Source: Methylococcaceae bacterium
GTDB taxonomy: Bacteria; Pseudomonadota; Gammaproteobacteria; Methylococcales; Methylomonadaceae
Assembly (NCBI GenBank): GCA_007280895.1
Contig: QYQN01000060.1
Coordinates: 1-58,685, forward strand
Direction: 5' to 3'
DNA: 58,685 bases
Positions within the stretch are counted from its first letter, which is position 1. Each line of letters begins with the position of its first letter. The notes beneath the pieces are model-generated. The model worked only from the letters and a program-made list of their open reading frames with translations, had not been told where the DNA came from and ran no database searches. A program made the position numbers and the translations under genes. Positions 9,679 through 52,321 of the stretch are shown in pieces.

Positions 9679-11928
9679 TTATTTAAGATCAAAGCGATCT
9701 AGCATCATCACTTTTACCCACGCATTCACAAAATCAGTCACGAATTTCTGTTTACCGTCTTCAGCCGCGTACACTTCTGCAATGGCTCGAAGTTCAGAGT
9801 GCGAACCGAAGATTAAATCAACCGATGTTGCTGTCCATTTAATAGCTCCTGAGTGCCGATCACTGCCCTCATACAGCCCTTCAGTACGGGTAGATTTCTG
9901 CCATTGCGTGGACATGTCTAGCAAATTGATGAAAAAATCATTACTTAACACACCAACTTTAGTGGTTAAAACGCCTGCACTGGACGCTTCTGCGTTGGCA
10001 CCTAAAACGCGCATACCGCCCACCAGAACCGTCATTTCAGGAACACTCAGGGTTAGCAGATTGGCTTTGTCGACGAGTGCTTCCGTTGGTGAGAGCCAAT
10101 TGCCTTCAGCGTAATAATTACGAAAGGCATCTGTTTTAGGTTCAAGAACAGCATAACCCTTTACATCAGTTTGCTCTTCTGTTGCGTCCATGCGACCTGG
10201 CACAAAGGGAACATTTACATTCAGTCCAGCCGCTTTAGCTGCTTCCTCAACGGCTGCCGTACCACTTAACACAATTAAATCTGCCAGTGATACTTGTTTA
10301 GCCGTTGCCCCTTTTGACTGCGTGCCATTAAAGCTTTGCTGAATAGCCTCTAAATGTGCCAGTACTTTAGCTAGCTCTTTAGGGTTATTGACTGGCCAAG
10401 CCTTTGCTGGCGCTAGGCGAACACGTGCACCATTCGCGCCTCCACGCATATCTGTGCCACGGAAAGATGCCGCTGAAGCCCATGCAGTACGAATTAACTC
10501 TGAACGGGTCAACCCTGATTTAAGAATTTTTTGTTTAAGCGAGTCAATGTCCTTAGCATTTATTAAGTTATGATTCACGGCAGGAATGGGGTCTTGCCAA
10601 ATAAGTGCTTGTTTGGGTACATCACTGCCTAAATAACGTGTGCTAGGTCCCATGTCGCGATGAGTCAGTTTAAACCATGCTTTTGCAAAACTGAGCTCAA
10701 ATTCTTTTGGGTTGGCCAAAAAACGTTTGGAAATTTTTTCGTAACTGGGATCAACTTTAAGGGCAATATCCGTGGTAAACATGATGGGCGGATGACGTTT
10801 AATGGTGTCGTGCGCATCAGGCACTACGTTTATGGCGGCATTATCCTTTGGAATCCACTGAGTAGCCCCTGCAGGACTTTTAGTCTTGACCCATTCGTAA
10901 GCAAATAAATTGCTAAGATATTGGTGCGTCCATTGTGTTGGATTAGCACTCCAAGCACCTTCTAAGCCACTCGTAATAGTGTCGGCTCTATTGCCTTTAC
11001 CACATTTATTTTTCCACCCTAAGCCCTGCTCTTCGATGCCAGCAGCGGCTGGTTCAGGTCCTATGCATTTGCTGGGATCGCCATTGCCATGCGCCTTACC
11101 AAAAGTATGTCCACCAGCGATTAAAGCAAGTGTTTCTTCATCATTCATTGCCATACGAGCAAAGGTTTCGCGAATATCTTTTGCCGCAGCCATGGGATCA
11201 TGATTGCCATTGGATCCTTCAGGATTCACATAGATAAGCCCCATCTGCACAGCGGCAAGTGGTTTATCTAAGTTACGATCTGCTTGGTAGCGTCCGTCTG
11301 CAAGCCATTTTTTCTCAGGCCCCCAATAAACTAAATCTGCTTCCCAATCGTCGGTGCGTCCGCCCGCAAAGCCAAAGGTTTTGAAACCCATTGATTCCAA
11401 CGCTACGTTACCGGTCAGCACCATTAAATCTGCCCAAGAAATTTTACTGCCGTATTTACTTTTAACAGGCCAAAGCAAGCGACGTGCTTTATCGAGGTTA
11501 GTATTATCAGGCCAACTATTGAGTGCTTCAAAACGCTGCTGACCACCCCCTGCACCGCCACGGCCATCAGCAACGCGATATGTTCCGGCACTGTGCCAAG
11601 CCATCCGAATAAAAAATGGTCCATAGTGTCCGTAATCAGCTGGCCACCAGTCTTGTGATGTTTTCATTAACTTTTCAATGTCTGCCTTCACCGCCTTCAA
11701 ATCAAGTTTCTTAAACTCTTTAGCATAATTAAACGTGCTGTCCATGGGATTGGATTCAGCTGCGTGTTGACGAAGCGGGGTTAAATCTAAGCGATCAGGC
11801 CACCAAAACTGATTGGATAGTGTTTTCAGTTCTGCTTTAGTGCTGGGAAGAGCAGGAATTTCCTCAGCGTAGCCCAGCTGAGAAAACACCACAGTAAAGA
11901 GCATAAGCTGCGGTAATGTTGGTTTCAT
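9679..11928 (-). CDS. katG: Catalase-peroxidase with N-terminal export signal (periplasmic KatG)
   Basis: KatG is a bifunctional heme enzyme that removes hydrogen peroxide. The start is set at the ATG with a GGAGA site 9 bp upstream, giving 749 aa; a longer reading from TTG has no such site. Residues 1-21 form a signal peptide (hydrophobic [14 protein letters not shown], then EE), so the enzyme is probably periplasmic, like KatP of enterohaemorrhagic E. coli; most KatGs are cytoplasmic. Distal residues Arg108, Trp111 and His112 ([11 protein letters not shown]) and proximal His274 ([11 protein letters not shown]) are present. Trp111, Tyr233 and Met259 can form the KatG-specific cross-link. Both duplicated halves are intact. 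The gene is monocistronic, isolated by about 490 and 420 bp of non-coding DNA. Confidence 0.95.
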
Positions 11929-11937
11929 GGTATGTAT

Positions 11938-11942
11938 TCTCC
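11938..11942 (-). promoter_or_regulatory. Ribosome binding site that fixes the katG start
   Basis: GGAGA on the minus strand, 9 bp before the ATG at 11928. It favours the start that places a signal peptide at the N-terminus over an upstream TTG at 11991, which would bury the signal inside a charged extension. Confidence 0.75.
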
Positions 11943-12020
11943 AGTTTATCTGTGCAGACAAACATGCCTGCCGTGTCATTTTATATGGCAAAAAAACAAA
12001 TAAGCCCTATCACATTGCAC

Positions 12021-12042
12021 TCGCCGCTTAGGCGATTTTTTT
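12021..12042 (+). terminator. Short hairpin with T7 tail
   Basis: TCGCC / GGCGA arms (5 bp, 5-nt loop) are followed by TTTTTTT on the plus strand. No plus-strand gene ends here, so it could only stop antisense read-through out of the katG region; it may equally be chance. Confidence 0.25.
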
Positions 12043-12227
12043 AGTATTCCTTATAAAACCAATAGTGCAAGTCCAGTTAAGCCTTGGTGTAGACTCCCTG
12101 CTTTTCTCATTATGACTTGGTTGACAAACCGACACAGACTAGACAGCTAATAATGTAAATGGGGAGCACTAGGCGATACGACTGCATGGAGGTAGGAGGT
12201 AGCGCACCAAATGGTGAGCCACAAAGC

Positions 12228-12256
12228 GTCGCAATACGGCTATCGCCTATTGCGAC
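12228..12256. repeat. REP-like palindrome (copy 2)
   Basis: Perfect 9-bp arms GTCGCAATA / TATTGCGAC surround a partly self-complementary core. The arms and core resemble the palindrome at 3306-3332 (shared GCAATA...TATTGC and GCC/GGC elements). It lies between rnd and katG, downstream of rnd, as expected for REP elements in 3' non-coding DNA. Confidence 0.6.
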
Positions 12257-12347
12257 CTATGGGTAATATGGGAACAAGGTGAATAATTAAACTTAGTACT
12301 GTTTGCTAAAGACTCGTCTAGGTGTCCAACAGCAGCAGGATTTAAGC

Positions 12348-13511
12348 TTATTGTGTTACCGCAATAATTTTTAAGGTGTTCTCCTGAATGCTCAGGGCTA
12401 ATTCACCGCTTAATAAACCGACTAATTCTCTGCCTGCCATGCTGTAACGCCAGCCATGCAGTAACGGACAGCTTTCATCTGCTTCCATAAGTAATATTTC
12501 TAATTCTTTACGCGTTGCTAAGATACTGGGATTGAGTGCATTTTCTTCTGCTCTAATACGTACCCACGCCGTTAAAATATCTAAAATGGCTTCTTGCTGT
12601 TGATTCTTTTTAAAAGCACGATCTTTTTCGTTTAAAGGAATGGGCAAGCGTTGCTTGGCGTCAGCAATCAGTTGACATAAAACACGCCCGTGTCGATTAA
12701 CAATACGTTCGCTGATACCACGAATGTTTGCCAAGTCTGGGAGTGTTTCAGGTTGTAATTTAGCAATATCCAATAACATTTCATCACGCAACAGCCATGT
12801 TTTAGGACGATTGTCTTCTTGTGCTTGCGTTTCGCGCCACATGGCAAGTGCTTGCATGACCGATAATTGTCGTCCTGTTAATTTATTCTTGCCTTTAATT
12901 TTTAGCCACGCTTGCTCAGGATGAACATGATAAATTTCTGGATTGGATAATTCTAAAAAATCATTGGCTAGCCAAGTAGAACGGCCTAATTCAGCTAATT
13001 TAGCGATCACGTGCTGATAAATCTGACATAAATAAATGACATCATCCGCCGCATATTCTATTTGCTCTGGGGTTAACGGACGTTGGCTCCAATCTGCACG
13101 GGTGTGGGCTTTATTTAAATTGATGTTGAGTAAGGTTGACACCATCATGGCATAGCCTGGATTATCTTGAAAACCTAGCAAAGGTGCCGCCACTTGGGTA
13201 TCGAAGATCGGCGTAGGCAGTTTGCCAGTAATTTGATAAAAAATTTCTAAATCTTGTCGACAGGAATGAAATACTTTAATTAAATCAGGTCGATAAATAG
13301 CTTCAAATAATTCACTCAGGTCTGTTAATGCTAAGGGATCAACACACACCACCCATTCTGGCGTTGCCATTTGCAGTAAACAAAACTTAGGATAATACGT
13401 TTTCTCTCGTAAGAACTCAGTGTCTAAAGCCAACCAAGATTCCCTGCGAATTTGCTGACACAGCTGGGATAATTTTTCAGGGGTATCGATATAATTAATA
13501 GTTTTATTCAT
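12348..13511 (-). CDS. rnd: Ribonuclease D
   Basis: RNase D is a 3'-5' exoribonuclease that trims tRNA and other small-RNA precursors. The 387-aa protein has a DEDD exonuclease domain: motif I LALDTEFLREKTYYPKF (residues 27-43), motif II with VFHSCRQDLEIFY (about 98-110) and motif III with YAADDVIYLCQIY (about 173-185). An HRDC domain follows (about 210-290). Length matches the family. It lies 79 bp downstream of the DbpA-domain gene on the same strand. Both are RNA-related, which fits shared expression, but there is no overlap. Confidence 0.95.
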   Translation of the reverse strand: MNKTINYIDTPEKLSQLCQQIRRESWLALDTEFLREKTYYPKFCLLQMATPEWVVCVDPLALTDLSELFEAIYRPDLIKVFHSCRQDLEIFYQITGKLPTPIFDTQVAAPLLGFQDNPGYAMMVSTLLNINLNKAHTRADWSQRPLTPEQIEYAADDVIYLCQIYQHVIAKLAELGRSTWLANDFLELSNPEIYHVHPEQAWLKIKGKNKLTGRQLSVMQALAMWRETQAQEDNRPKTWLLRDEMLLDIAKLQPETLPDLANIRGISERIVNRHGRVLCQLIADAKQRLPIPLNEKDRAFKKNQQQEAILDILTAWVRIRAEENALNPSILATRKELEILLMEADESCPLLHGWRYSMAGRELVGLLSGELALSIQENTLKIIAVTQ

Positions 13512-13590
13512 AAAGTCATGGTTAACACAATTACTGCATAATTAAGAAGCACACTGGCATCTTGGAAAATAACTACCTTTAACTGATGTC

Positions 13591-14169
13591 TTAATTTTCA
13601 GAAGGTGTTGTTGAGCTAGCTGGTTTTTTACGACGCTGCATAAACCCACGTTTTTTATTTCTAACTTTTACGCGTCTGATAGCTAACTTTTGCTGGTTAA
13701 TCTCGACCGTTTTTAAATGATGAAAAATATCCATTGGCATCGCATCAGGTAATTCGATCAGTGTGTATAAATGTCGAATGGATACATTATTGATATTATT
13801 TTTATCTACGCCTGATTCTTCAATCAATACGCGCTTAATTTCATCCACAGTCACCTGATGATAGATACCAATATCTAAGCGATAGCGAACCATTTTAATG
13901 TGCGTTGAGGCGTTTTTATCACTATGCAGAGAGGTATTATGTTGTTCGATGCATGGCTCAGTTGCCAATAACACACCTGGTTGCTGTTCAAGAAGGTGCA
14001 ATAACGCTGCGGCACAGGTTAAATAATCAATATTAAGTGTTGCTACTAAGCGAGCCAGCAAATCATGATGAGTGTTCGCAAGCTTTGCCGCCAATATCTC
14101 TGCTAATTGTGCAATTAAATCACTCTCAGAGGCTATGTTTTCAGTAACGTTGTGCTGACTGTTGTTCAT
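13591..14169 (-). CDS. Stand-alone DbpA/DeaD-type RNA-binding domain protein (no helicase core)
   Basis: A 192-aa protein whose residues 93-168 match the C-terminal RNA-binding domain of DEAD-box helicases of the DeaD/CsdA and DbpA type: MVRYRLDIGIYHQVTVDEI, then LYTLIELPDAMPMDIFHHL and KLAIRRVKV. The segment before it (about 30-68, with LLARLVATLNIDYLTCAAAL) resembles the helical linker that precedes this domain in DeaD. A basic tail (KKRGFMQRRKK) follows. No DEAD, SAT or HRIGRTGR motif exists in the protein, and the DNA on either side belongs to surA and rnd. It is therefore an isolated RNA-binding module, either a relic of a deaD gene or a separate RNA-chaperone-like protein. The ATG start and intact frame suggest it is functional. 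Confidence 0.75.
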   Translation of the reverse strand: MNNSQHNVTENIASESDLIAQLAEILAAKLANTHHDLLARLVATLNIDYLTCAAALLHLLEQQPGVLLATEPCIEQHNTSLHSDKNASTHIKMVRYRLDIGIYHQVTVDEIKRVLIEESGVDKNNINNVSIRHLYTLIELPDAMPMDIFHHLKTVEINQQKLAIRRVKVRNKKRGFMQRRKKPASSTTPSEN

Positions 14170-14253
14170 TAAAAAAATAAATCAAAAATAATCAAACCAC
14201 AGGTTAGTATCATGATCATTGCCTTAAAGACATACGTTCTTGATACAAGTAAT

Positions 14254-14278
14254 CACGACAGGCGTTGGCTCTGTCGTG
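14254..14278 (-). terminator. Hairpin just after surA
   Basis: CACGACAG / CTGTCGTG form perfect 8-bp arms with a 9-nt loop, beginning 6 bp past the surA stop on the minus strand. No long T-tract follows, so it is a weak or factor-dependent terminator or a 3'-end stabiliser for the lptD-surA transcript. Confidence 0.5.
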
Positions 14279-14284
14279 GATAAA

Positions 14285-15586
14285 TTAAACGCGACTTTCT
14301 ATAATTTCAACATACGCTTCATCACGTAAACGACGCATCCAAAGCTCTGTTTCTTCTTCAATTTTTCGTTTTCTAATGGCTTCGCGCACCTGATTTTTCC
14401 GGTACTCGACACTGTTGTCTTTCTTTTCTCGCTCGTTGACTTGAATCAAATGCCAACCAAATTGCGTTTGCACTGGCTCACTCATTTGCCCAAGACTCAG
14501 CGCATTCATGGCTTCTTCAAAGGGTTTTACTAAATCACCTGGCGAGACCCAGTCTAAAGACCCACCTTTTATTGCAGTGCCTTTATCATCTGAATGTGAG
14601 CGCGCTAAAACAGCAAAATCATCACCGTCTTGAATGCGTTTTTTTAACTCAAGCAAGCGTTTACTGGCTTCAGTGTCATCAATTAATTCATTAGTTTTGA
14701 TTAAAATATGACGCACTTTTGTTTTGGTAATGGTATGACTGTCAACGCCTTTAATCGCTAACATTTTAATAATATGAAAACCACTAGGGCTTCTGATGGC
14801 ATCGGCAACCTGTCCTTCTTGCATACGGGTAATGCCTTCACTAAATAAAGAAGGAATATCTCGTAGTGCTCGCCAGCCCAAATCCCCGCCTTTTAAAGCG
14901 TTTGCATCATCTGAATAACTCATCGCTAATTTGCCAAAGTCTTGACCTTCGCGCAATTTTTCAAGCACTTGATCAACCTTTGCTTGAGCTTTTTTAATAT
15001 CCGTTGCTGAGGCGCCCTCGCGAACCGCAACTAAAATATGACCCAAACGATAGTTAATATCTTCGCTGCCCACTTTACCTTCAGTTTCAAGATAATGATC
15101 AACTTCACGATCAGTTACCTTAATACGTCCACCTAATTCACGTCCACGCAGTTGATTAATGATAATTTCATTACGCATATTATCTAAGAATGCTTTGTAA
15201 GACATGCCTTGGTTTTGTAATTCAGCGCGAAATTGTTCCAAACTTAAGTGGTTACGTTCTGCGATTTCAAGGGCTGACGTTGTTAACATTTCCTCACTGA
15301 CCGTAATGCCTGCTTTTTCTGCCATTAAGCGTTGCAATTTATCCATAATTAACTTTTCAAGCACTTGCTTACGCAACATAGCTTCTGGCGGTAATTGTGC
15401 CTTACTTGCTTGCATACGTTGAATAATGGTGGCGACTTCAAGATTTAATTCGCTTTCTAAAATCACATCGTCTTCTACTACCGCCACCATACGATCTAAT
15501 ACTTCGGCGATGGTCGCAAAGCTAAGCAAACCACAGCACATTAATAGTGCCCTAAGCATTTTTTTAATCACGTTATTCTTCATCAT
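14285..15586 (-). CDS. surA: Periplasmic chaperone / peptidyl-prolyl isomerase SurA
   Basis: SurA escorts unfolded outer-membrane proteins, including LptD, across the periplasm to the BAM complex. The 433-aa protein has a signal peptide (basic KNNVIKK, then MLRALLMCCGLLSFATIA, cleavage near residue 28). An N-terminal chaperone module starts at DRMVAVVEDDVILESEL, followed by two parvulin domains (about 178-275 and 287-385). It ends with the C-terminal SurA helix. It overlaps the lptD stop by 4 bp. In Pseudomonas and E. coli pdxA and ksgA follow surA; here they are absent and the DbpA-domain gene and rnd follow. Confidence 0.96.
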   Translation of the reverse strand: MMKNNVIKKMLRALLMCCGLLSFATIAEVLDRMVAVVEDDVILESELNLEVATIIQRMQASKAQLPPEAMLRKQVLEKLIMDKLQRLMAEKAGITVSEEMLTTSALEIAERNHLSLEQFRAELQNQGMSYKAFLDNMRNEIIINQLRGRELGGRIKVTDREVDHYLETEGKVGSEDINYRLGHILVAVREGASATDIKKAQAKVDQVLEKLREGQDFGKLAMSYSDDANALKGGDLGWRALRDIPSLFSEGITRMQEGQVADAIRSPSGFHIIKMLAIKGVDSHTITKTKVRHILIKTNELIDDTEASKRLLELKKRIQDGDDFAVLARSHSDDKGTAIKGGSLDWVSPGDLVKPFEEAMNALSLGQMSEPVQTQFGWHLIQVNEREKKDNSVEYRKNQVREAIRKRKIEEETELWMRRLRDEAYVEIIESRV

Positions 15587-18249
15587 GTTGTTGGTTTCCG
15601 ATACCCATATATACTTTTTTCAAAAAAGGCATCTAGCTTCTCGCCAATACCTGTTAAGCCTTTTAATTCAATTTGAAAGAAAATACCCGTGAGTAAATTT
15701 CCTTCAAGAGGATTAGTAAGCAGTGCTGGGTCACCCGTAAATTGGTTGATACTGCTTAAATAACGTCGTCCAATAACACGGAAACGCCAACAACAATTTT
15801 CTTTTTCTAACCCCAAAAATCCATCTTGCGTTTTATTATATAACCAAGAATACTGCCAACGCCCAACCGCATACCAATTATCGTAAATAAGCCAACGCAC
15901 GGAAAAATCACTTTGCGTAATATCATTGGTTTGATCTGGAATTAACGGCGCTTGTCGGTATAAATAGCCCATGTTAATAATTTTTCCTGCTTGATCCACA
16001 TAATGCATACCAAGCTTACCACGCACGATAGCATTGCTGTGAGGATCCCATTGTACCCCCGTGTCAATCGATACTTTGTCGGTGAGTTGACTGCTTAATT
16101 CAGTCACTAACGGCGACGATGTAGCTGTCTCTTTTGGACTGATTGCGCATAAGCTTGAGGGATAATCTCCGCATAAGGTTACGTCGCGATTACGAAAATA
16201 AAAAATCTCACCCACACTTAGTTTTAAACGCTCTAAGCCAGTGACCGGATCAATCAAGCTTGAGCTTAAGGCTGTCGTGATTTGATTGGCATCTTGTATT
16301 CGGTCTGAGCCACTAAATCTATTTTCTCTAAACATGCTGCTATACCAAAAGTCATAAACAGACGTATCAAAGATAGGAATTTGGCTCTGATCAACTTTTG
16401 GAATGTACAGATAAAACAACCTTGGCTCTATCGTGTGTAAAAAACGTTTATTACTTAGGCTAAGGTCACGCTCAAAGAAAGTGCCTGCATCGGCGGAGAC
16501 GCTTGGCAAGACTCTGGAAACATCGGCGGCTAATTCAGACGTGGGGCTATTAAGTAGATACTGCGTATAGTTTACTGAAACTTTTGGCGTTAAATATGCG
16601 CTGCTGGTTTGTAAGGGCACGCTCAACGATGGCTTGATAGTAAACCGTTGCCCATTGACTAAATCATCATGTTGAAAATACACCGACTCTGTTTGCAGCG
16701 CCGCATCAATGGGGAGCATTTGGTTTGTCAACGAGCGATTTACAGTTAAATTTATTTGCGGTAAACGGCGATACGGAATTTGTGCGCTACTTAAGGTCGG
16801 GTCAATGGTTTGATAGCTTTCTACTCGAGCGGTGAGTTCTACACCTTCCTTAAGATAATTGACATCCGCCTGACTTTTAAGAAAACTGAAATTTGGGTAA
16901 CTCAAGGCATTCCCTAGCTCAGTAAAATAGCCTTTATCAGACACTTGATTGACATCTAAATTGGCCTGAATATACGGTGAAAACTGTGTGCTATGATTTA
17001 ACGACGCTAAATAACGGTCGGTGTGTTTAAGCTCATCATCGGGCATGTATTCAATACTTGCTAAGCCATGAGATTGTTGGGTTAGATAGCGTAGATCACC
17101 CGCCAATAATATACCTCGTTTAGTAAAATATCGTGGGTTTAATACAGCATCGTAATTGGGTGCTAAATTCCAATAATAGGGCGTTGACGTAGTAAAACCA
17201 CCATTGCTTGTGTTGCCAAAAGAGGGCGAAAGAAACCCAGATAAACGGCGGTTATCAACGGGAAACGCCATGTATGGTGAATAAAATACTGGCACGCCTT
17301 TGAACTCAAGCCAGGTGTTTTTAGCAGAACCCTTGCCTGTTTGCTTATTAAGTTTTAACTCACCTGCATGCAATACCCAATCTTGGTTGCCAGGTTTACA
17401 ACTGGTATAACTCACATCCTGATAATGCGATAAATATTTATTATCACGAAAAATCGCTTTAGCCCGACCGCGCAACGGTGCGGCTGGATAGATAAATAAG
17501 GTTTCACGAATTTTAGCTTGATCAGACGTTAATTTTAACTGCGCAGAGTCACTGTGTAACGCTAACTCATCCTCACTGTAATAGACATTCCCTTGTAAGT
17601 TTAAGGTTTGAGAAATACTGTCATAATTTGCATGATTGGCTTTAGCGTGTTGATCAGCGCGATGCATTTCAACTTGCCCAGAATACACGCCTATTTCATT
17701 ATCAAAAATTTCGGAGTAATTAGATTTAACGTCTAAAGAGGCTTTATTGCGCAGTTCTTTATTATGCGGACTCCAGCTGCGTTGCGTGCCTTTAGAGGAC
17801 AAACAACTGCCCCAAGGGTCGTGTGCAAATTGAGCGTTTAATAATGTAAAAATATGTTCTTGCGGGGCACTAAAAGATGGTGCAAACACGTGCCAATCCG
17901 TGTCTGGCGTATTAAGTTCAGGGTCTGTATCAGGAAATGCGGGCGGTGACAAATCCACGGCGTTAGGTTCAGCAGGAGAAGCAGCAACAGTGTTGTTAGC
18001 GTGAGTGTCTGTAACGGTTGGCAATAGCTTAGGATTAGGGCTAATTTCTTGAGCTAATGGTGCAGAGATTGTAGACGGCGTGGTGGCAGTTGGTTGCATC
18101 AATAAAGCCGTTGAGTGCATTGACTCGCCTTCGCCACACACCCAGTCATTCGTTTTGTTATTCTGTTGACATGACCATACAGGAGGATTGGCCAAACTTA
18201 CAGACGTACTAAGTGAGGGTAAAAAAATTATAAATAGTCGACGAAGCAT
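15583..18249 (-). CDS. lptD: LPS-assembly protein LptD
   Basis: LptD is the outer-membrane barrel that, with LptE, inserts lipopolysaccharide into the outer leaflet. With the ATG at 18249 the protein has 888 aa and begins with a signal peptide (MLRRLFIIFLPSLSTSVSLA). A TTG nine codons upstream is also in frame and neither has a clear ribosome site. A Pro/Thr/Ala-rich stretch (about 50-130) precedes the OstA-type beta-jellyroll (about 180-320, with SEIFDNEIGVYSGQVEMHRA and ASYTSCKPGNQDW-like Cys pairs). The LptD barrel follows to the C-terminus. Several Cys residues suit the inter-domain disulfides known for LptD. Coupled to surA by a 4-bp overlap. Confidence 0.94.
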   Translation of the reverse strand: MLRRLFIIFLPSLSTSVSLANPPVWSCQQNNKTNDWVCGEGESMHSTALLMQPTATTPSTISAPLAQEISPNPKLLPTVTDTHANNTVAASPAEPNAVDLSPPAFPDTDPELNTPDTDWHVFAPSFSAPQEHIFTLLNAQFAHDPWGSCLSSKGTQRSWSPHNKELRNKASLDVKSNYSEIFDNEIGVYSGQVEMHRADQHAKANHANYDSISQTLNLQGNVYYSEDELALHSDSAQLKLTSDQAKIRETLFIYPAAPLRGRAKAIFRDNKYLSHYQDVSYTSCKPGNQDWVLHAGELKLNKQTGKGSAKNTWLEFKGVPVFYSPYMAFPVDNRRLSGFLSPSFGNTSNGGFTTSTPYYWNLAPNYDAVLNPRYFTKRGILLAGDLRYLTQQSHGLASIEYMPDDELKHTDRYLASLNHSTQFSPYIQANLDVNQVSDKGYFTELGNALSYPNFSFLKSQADVNYLKEGVELTARVESYQTIDPTLSSAQIPYRRLPQINLTVNRSLTNQMLPIDAALQTESVYFQHDDLVNGQRFTIKPSLSVPLQTSSAYLTPKVSVNYTQYLLNSPTSELAADVSRVLPSVSADAGTFFERDLSLSNKRFLHTIEPRLFYLYIPKVDQSQIPIFDTSVYDFWYSSMFRENRFSGSDRIQDANQITTALSSSLIDPVTGLERLKLSVGEIFYFRNRDVTLCGDYPSSLCAISPKETATSSPLVTELSSQLTDKVSIDTGVQWDPHSNAIVRGKLGMHYVDQAGKIINMGYLYRQAPLIPDQTNDITQSDFSVRWLIYDNWYAVGRWQYSWLYNKTQDGFLGLEKENCCWRFRVIGRRYLSSINQFTGDPALLTNPLEGNLLTGIFFQIELKGLTGIGEKLDAFFEKSIYGYRKPTT

Positions 18250-51013: not shown

Positions 51014-52321
51014 TTAGCGTTTACTACTTCTGGCGCTACCACGACGGCCTGCTGGCTTACCAAGATTATCAGGTGATTTTGACGATTTCCCTACTGGCGG
51101 CGTTTTTTTATTGTGTCGAAAATCTTTATTACCTGTTGTCTTATTGGGCGCATTTTTTTTCGGTGCCTCCGCAACAGTTAACGAAATAGGTTCGTGGCCT
51201 GTATCGGCAACACGTGGAATTTGCCGTTTTAAAAATTTTTCCAAGTCTGCTAAATAACGTGCTTCATCAGGACACACCAAAGAAATCGCTACGCCCGTTG
51301 CGCCTGCTCGACCTGTTCTACCAATTCTATGCACATAATCTTCTGGCACTTGGGGTAAATCAAAATTAACCACGTGTGGTAAGTCTTCAATATCCAAGCC
51401 ACGTGCAGCAATATCTGTCGCCACTAAAACCGAGACCTTGCCAGTTTTAAATGCTTCTAAGGCTTTATTGCGAGCACCTTGTGTTTTATCGCCATGCAGT
51501 GCTGTTGCCCGAATTCCATCTGTCATTAATTGTTTTTGTAAACGATCGGCGCCATGTTTCGTGCGCACAAAGACCAAAACTTGTTGCCAATTATTGCTGC
51601 CGATCAAATACGATAACACCTCACGCTTATACTCTTTATTAATCGCGTATAACTGCTCTGTGATCGTATCAGCTGTGGCATTTTGTCGTGCAACGGACAC
51701 TTCAGTGGGATTATTTAATAAGGCCGCTGCCAGCGTTTTAATGCCATTGGCAATCGTGGCAGAAAATAATACTGTTTGTCTACGCTTGGGTAATAATCCC
51801 ATCAGCCTTTTTATATCAGGTAAAAAGCCCATATCTAACATACGATCAGCTTCATCTAATACCAAAATATCCACTTTTGATAAATTAACATTACGTTGCT
51901 GAACGTGATCAAGCAAGCGTCCTGGGGTCGCTACAATAATATCGCAACCACGTCGTAAATTACGCGTTTGCATTCCCACGCTTACCCCGCCCACAATCAC
52001 TTCTGCAGTTAACGGGAGATATTTTCCATACGCTTTGATGCTATCAAACACTTGTAAGGCTAGTTCACGGGTGGGCGTTAAAATTAAGCCACGAACCGGA
52101 CGAGATACTTGCGAAAAATCGACTTCTTCTGCTAAGCGTTGTAATAAAGGCAAAGCAAAACTTGCTGTTTTACCCGTACCTGTTTGTGCACCGGCTAAAA
52201 TATCTTTACCACTTAACATCAATGGAATAGTTTGCTGTTGAACAGGTGTGGGGATGCTGTAACCTTGTTCGGCAACAGCGGTAAGAAGCGCTTCGGTTAA
52301 ACCGAGTTGTTTAAAAGACAT
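51014..52321 (-). CDS. rhlE: ATP-dependent RNA helicase RhlE
   Basis: RhlE is a DEAD-box RNA helicase involved in ribosome assembly and RNA turnover. The 435-aa protein has the Q motif ([14 protein letters not shown], about residues 20-33), motif I AQTGTGKT (about 45-52), Ia PTRELA, II DEAD (about 155-158), [18 protein letters not shown] and [10 protein letters not shown] (about 332-339). Its C-terminus is basic and lacks the DbpA/DeaD-type RNA-binding domain that is encoded alone at 13591-14169. The sequence around the motifs ([18 protein letters not shown]) is RhlE-like. Confidence 0.94.

Follow-up and report, generated by a model that had tools for sequence, protein, structure and literature searches.

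Locus and gene neighbourhood

The window, that is, the whole 58,685-nt stretch of DNA analysed, belongs to a draft assembly (160 contigs, 2,864,888 bases) and carries at 13591..14169 of the minus strand an ORF encoding a 192-aa protein. It is flanked on the same strand by surA upstream (14285..15586) and by rnd, encoding RNase D, downstream (12348..13511; TIGR01388, 353.8 bits), as the sequence-only reading of this DNA had described. That reading also placed a DbpA-type RNA-binding domain at residues 93-168 of a protein with no DEAD-box motif, and Pfam bore it out: PF03880 (DbpA) matched aa 95-165 with an E-value of 5.4e-11 and 42.8 bits, the cutoff being 25.6 bits (45 bits for the same stretch in a genome-wide search), and neither DEAD nor Helicase_C was found in the window protein, DbpA and DeaD_dimer (PF25399) being the only families at E≤1. 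DeaD_dimer scored 17.1 bits in the window protein alone, below the Pfam cutoff of 23. An alignment and profile (A1) were built from 25 of 47 stand-alone proteins, the window protein included; all 25 members matched PF03880 at E≤1, and DEAD and Helicase_C were absent from the 15 Pfam families matched by any of them.

Read from its N terminus, the protein comprises a three-helix domain homologous to the DeaD/CsdA dimerization domain (aa 12-66, 13972..14136; Pfam DeaD_dimer at aa 19-62), a DbpA-type, RRM-like RNA-binding domain (RBD; aa 92-168, 13666..13896) and a basic C-terminal tail (aa 169-192, 13594..13665), all on the minus strand. Across the 46 named loci this tail has a median net charge of +8 (range +5 to +10) and a median length of 32 aa; the median net charge of the RBD itself is only +1. 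On the evidence of the ORF, the Pfam match, the orthologues and structural modelling, the 192-aa protein is the C-terminal half of DeaD minus both RecA domains.

In 43/46 named loci the gene is immediately preceded by a surA ORF in the same orientation, at a distance of 2-288 nt when the longest ORFs are taken, and distances this short suggest an operon with surA. Two of the remaining loci end at a contig edge and the third, L044:5019-6074 of Methylobacter sp. KS41, has no surA alongside but keeps its Zn_protease neighbour. The downstream side is variable. Within 200 nt it is occupied by rnd in 11/46 loci and by another gene cluster in 20/46 (both members examined belong to Zn_protease, PF05618), while rnd lies farther on in 10/46, other genes follow in three and the sequence is too short to tell in two. 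Scanning for promoters and terminators returned counts that were both below the shuffle mean, and an Rfam scan of positions 12000-16000 yielded no match at E≤0.1. Farther along the same strand, the window carries a KatG-like catalase-peroxidase ORF (9679-11991), whose N-terminus resembles a signal peptide by eye.

At the ten surA loci inspected in other families of the order (Methylococcales), surA was followed in eight by two ORFs, the first pdxA-like as judged by eye and the second rsmA-like, the exceptions being L192 and L193; PF00398 matches at the rsmA-like place were obtained in four of those eight (G028, G029, G031 and G038). The possibility that the gene replaces rsmA was nonetheless rejected, given that an order-wide scan detected rsmA in 168/177 family genomes. 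The genome under study yielded a weak partial PF00398 match and no rsmA/ksgA at E≤1e-15, an absence that, in view of the same 168 genomes, probably reflects a gap in the draft.

Distribution, selection and origin

The A1 profile, run against 251 genomes of the order, revealed a stand-alone match at E≤6.4e-35 in 172/177 family genomes, so that the stand-alone ORF for which the sequence-only reading proposed to survey neighbouring genomes is indeed found there. In the order's other families, 44 of 74 genomes matched at E≤1e-5, with 7.8e-24 as the best value. The window protein used as the query of a 41-genome set gave a consistent picture: all 25 family genomes matched at E≤4.4e-26 in frames of 172-281 aa, and the 16 genomes of other families either had no match (7) or matched more weakly (9; best 8.0e-11) in frames of 549-1076 aa. 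The frames bearing A1 matches span 127-281 aa among the matches listed and 174-238 aa in 22 further genomes. In-match stop codons were observed in some genomes; at L094 and L100 the stop, 111-112 aa past the RBD start, is the end of the protein.

Each of the family genomes outside the 172 was inspected individually. In G250 the gene copy is cut by the contig end, and in G209 the contig ends shortly after surA and the sole match falls in a 608-aa helicase frame. In G175, G206 and G210, surA is followed by other genes and every match falls in a helicase frame (589-602 aa), which indicates that the gene is absent. These three genomes (L183, L184 and L186) share genus g34 with G195 and G251, which keep the gene.

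Beyond the order, a class scan of 369 genomes, two of them of the family, uncovered matches at E≤1e-25 in five other genomes, all in frames of helicase length (592-765 aa), and a phylum scan of 398 genomes at E≤1e-24, in which at most eight candidates per genome were scored, returned the source genome only, so that the stand-alone protein was seen in this family alone; both scans address this protein and not short stand-alone RBDs of other kinds. A mobile origin was ruled against by searches of phage records (no match at E≤0.01), viral contigs (none confirmed) and plasmid records, where the eight matches were all below 60% identity, six being annotated DEAD/DEAH helicases and two unannotated.

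Codon comparison of 14 gene pairs, two of which were saturated, evidenced purifying selection on the gene, strongest in the RBD. Where dS could be measured (12 pairs), whole-gene dN/dS ranged from 0.08 to 0.34, with values of 0.00-0.12 for the RBD (12 pairs) and 0.15-0.37 for the N-terminal part (11 pairs).

Phylogenetic analysis of 82 RBDs over 77 columns grouped the stand-alone domains in one clade (100/99) on a long stem. The DeaD/DbpA split (99/97) leaves this clade with DeaD, and it lies outside the clade of the family's own DeaD proteins (100/97). Topology testing rejected a grouping with DbpA (p-AU 0.016) and did not reject one with family DeaD (p-AU 0.395). The gene therefore originated from a DeaD-type gene, probably before the family diversified, as inferred from this tree. 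A later origin, by duplication of the DeaD that the family already had, is disfavoured by the position of the stand-alone RBDs outside the family DeaD clade, a placement to be read with the 77 columns and the p-AU of 0.395 in mind.

The dimerization-type domain and the RNA contact site

The helical linker that the sequence-only reading had called DeaD-like could be specified further. An hhalign comparison of 21 stand-alone N-terminal segments (A2) with 17 DeaD dimerization domains (A3) gave a probability of 96.0 and an E-value of 4.2e-9 over 50 gap-free columns, against a probability of 4.7 for the best of 60 column shuffles and 0.5 for the reversed control. DeaD_dimer was likewise matched at E≤1 by 21/25 A1 members, the window protein included (best 1.7e-9), and two relatives exceeded the Pfam cutoff with 23.4 and 26.1 bits versus 23. 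Other comparisons gave weaker matches: a profile of DeaD dimerization domains matched only 21/46 named loci at E<0.01, and the A1 profile reached only E 0.16 against the matching region of CsdA (5gi4). AlphaFold2 predicted three helices in the N-terminal part, with modest confidence for the domain alone (pLDDT 69.9), and a Foldseek search with that model found no solved homologue, the best E-value being 4.4. As judged from the profile comparison, the N-terminal domain is homologous to the DeaD/CsdA dimerization domain.

This domain is present in 34/46 named loci and missing from 12, all of them titled Methylobacter (L058, L067-L071, L073-L077 and L079), where the N-termini are variable and the RBD is kept; three further loci with a Methylobacter title (L042, L044 and L051) do have it. 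Because 12 of the 46 loci dispense with the domain, a dimer would not be essential to the role of the RBD.

For the second domain, the AlphaFold2 model of the whole protein (mean pLDDT 71.7, pTM 0.42) showed an RRM-like fold at residues 93-166. Foldseek matched the model to the RBDs of DbpA, CsdA and YxiN, and VIA-align placed the DbpA RRM (7pli/7pmq; Z 11.6 over 76-77 residues) and YxiN (3moj; Z 9.9 over 74) at the top of the structural matches. Residues 94-168 of the window protein aligned to 404-478 of rRNA-bound YxiN. The reported contacts of YxiN comprise G423 and T424 at the fourth nucleotide, K427 at a uridine, and a guanine that is read by the backbone of I436, G437 and I439 (PMC3695512). 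We transferred these contacts to window-protein positions 113, 114, 117, 126, 127 and 129 through a constant offset of 310, which is supported by where the structural alignment begins and ends and by gap-free sequence alignments.

We then compared 47 stand-alone RBDs with 61 helicase RBDs (18 from family DeaD, 30 from other DeaD and 13 from DbpA) at these positions. Helicase domains are uniform there, with G113 and A114 in 61/61, N117 in 48/48 DeaD and G (43), A (17) or V (1) at 127. None of the 47 stand-alone RBDs carries the set of RNA-contact residues of YxiN and helicase RBDs at 113, 114, 117 and 127. Position 113 is K in 35, R in 5, E in 3, Q in 3 and I in 1, never G; position 114 is V in 33, T in 5, L in 4, I in 4 and A in 1, leaving A or T in 6/47; position 117 is E in 43, D in 3 and Q in 1, with neither K nor N in any; and position 127 is N in 46 and S in 1, with neither G nor A. 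At 129, I (34), V (12) and L (1) were found. The replacements are accompanied by strict conservation, since K123, N124, N125, I126 and N128 are invariant in 47/47 and form with position 127 a conserved Asn-rich stretch, KNNINN (aa 123-128; 13786..13803, minus strand), at the position equivalent to the guanine-reading site of YxiN and Hera. The alignment suggests that the contact site was remade a single time and has stayed fixed since, a pattern that argues for a new RNA target or, with lower likelihood, for a loss of RNA binding at this face.

Proposed function, rival readings and known systems

The source genome also encodes a full DeaD of 582 aa (L001) with DEAD, Helicase_C, DeaD_dimer and DbpA domains, which answers the question raised by the sequence-only reading of whether an intact copy exists elsewhere, and a DbpA-like helicase in a 476-aa ORF (L002). 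The RhlE of the window (51014-52321) exceeds the cutoff for DEAD, Helicase_C and ResIII and, as had been stated, lacks the DbpA domain, with neither PF03880 nor PF25399 at E≤1. We searched for DeaD at E≤1e-100 in 20 genomes with an intact copy of the stand-alone gene, namely the source genome plus 19 chosen for a single match in the A1 scan, and found it in 17, two of these matches being partial; it was also present in 21/21 other family genomes. In G198, G201 and G233 the stand-alone gene is present and no DeaD match was obtained at E≤1e-100.

Domain anatomy and conservation make the locus look like that of a working RNA-binding protein rather than a gene fragment. We favor, with a probability of about 0.55, a lineage-specific RNA-binding protein that would serve as a dimeric, ATP-independent RNA chaperone or adaptor with an RNA specificity of its own, most plausibly on rRNA precursors; dimer formation, the RNA target and RNA remodelling are what we infer here. 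The N-terminal domain would most likely form the dimer, the RRM-like domain with its rebuilt recognition site would bind one RNA feature and the basic tail may hold a neighbouring duplex, as in Hera, whose basic tail is reported to contact double-stranded RNA (PMC3695512). A DDX21 construct composed of the dimerization domain, GUCT and the basic tail is reported to remodel RNA G-quadruplexes in an ATP-independent manner, with dimerization being important for this activity (PMC7721647); by analogy, it may be taken as the closest experimental parallel. rRNA is put forward as the target only because DbpA, CsdA and YxiN are reported to act in 50S maturation; CsdA is also reported not to bind hairpin 92 (PMC8190605). 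The proposal of the sequence-only reading that this is a separate, putatively RNA-binding protein that could act in trans is thus supported by anatomy and conservation, and is not supported for the two partners that it named.

Those partners were RNase D and RhlE, to which the protein would present RNA. Indeed, rnd adjoins the gene in the window, lies within 200 nt of it in 11/46 loci and is found farther downstream in ten more, but a different cluster takes its place in 20/46, with Zn_protease in two tested members, and the constant neighbour is surA. No result links the protein to RhlE, which has neither DeaD_dimer nor DbpA at E≤1, so that we deem a partnership with either enzyme very improbable. 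The relic of deaD contemplated by the same reading is almost certainly wrong: the missing helicase core would fit a decaying remnant, but the gene is under purifying selection, coexists with an intact deaD, is retained in 172/177 family genomes at a fixed place after surA and encodes RBDs that make up one clade apart from family DeaD.

Two readings that accept a working protein deserve more weight. In the first, the altered contact residues would reflect loss of the original RNA-binding face, and the RRM-like domain would now bind protein. The contrast between the G113 and A114 of 61/61 helicase RBDs and the 0/47 stand-alone RBDs with G113, together with the median RBD charge of +1, speaks for such a protein-interaction module; the basic tail kept at +5 to +10 in the 46 named loci, and a Lys and four Asn that hardly vary, if at all, at the contact site, speak against it. 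Such residues often contact RNA, and we consider the module improbable. DeaD, in turn, is the candidate helicase partner because the stand-alone protein carries the DeaD dimerization domain. As a trans-acting subunit or regulator, the protein would form with DeaD a heterodimer of one motor and two RBDs of differing specificity, thereby redirecting or dampening the helicase. The homology of the dimerization domains, the presence of DeaD in 17/20 checked and 21/21 other family genomes and an RBD site unlike DeaD's own are compatible with this arrangement, which we hold to be possible though doubtful. Against it, 12 loci lack the dimerization domain, yet in the only pair of these that was compared, L073 and L074, the RBD shows no amino acid change; in two genomes of genus g16, where the stand-alone match begins only at 63 or 67 of the model, DeaD retains a dimerization domain of its own (L154 and L156); G175, G206 and G210 retain DeaD and lack the gene; and the two genes are unlinked. 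Pairing with DeaD cannot be a universal or general function either, because those 12 loci, all titled Methylobacter, are without the domain. Its more specific form, in which a helicase-free relative of DeaD adds a second, differently reading RBD through the shared domain and so acts as a lineage-specific specificity subunit in trans in methanotrophs, is tentative and rather unlikely.

In this protein the accessory part of a DEAD-box helicase has been retained alone, its RNA-reading positions having changed together and then become fixed, and it provides one family of gammaproteobacterial methanotrophs with a nearly universal protein of RNA-binding type. It offers a natural test of what the dimerization and RNA-binding domains of DeaD/CsdA do without the motor, and of how an RRM of the DbpA type gains a new RNA target. 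We found no paper on the stand-alone protein in the open-access literature; a Treponema pallidum 'DbpA RNA binding domain protein', TPANIC_1029, is listed in PMC8525777, and its likeness is one of product name alone. Comparison with characterized systems is more informative. DeaD/CsdA has the same order of dimerization domain (PF25399), RRM-like domain (PF03880) and basic tail, and the stand-alone RBDs fall on its side of the tree; the stand-alone protein differs in having no RecA domains and in contact positions 113, 114, 117 and 127. The YxiN/DbpA RBD, reader of 23S rRNA hairpin 92, is alike in fold (Z 9.9 for YxiN 3moj, 11.6 for DbpA 7pmq), but YxiN G423, T424, K427 and G437 correspond mostly to K, V, E and N in the stand-alone RBDs, which have no helicase core attached. 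Finally, in the published descriptions of Hera (PMC3695512) and DDX21 (PMC7721647), the dimerization domain and RBD of the former and the dimerization domain, GUCT and tail of the latter show the same arrangement with a basic, Arg-containing tail; there these parts sit within full helicases, whereas here they constitute a natural separate protein.
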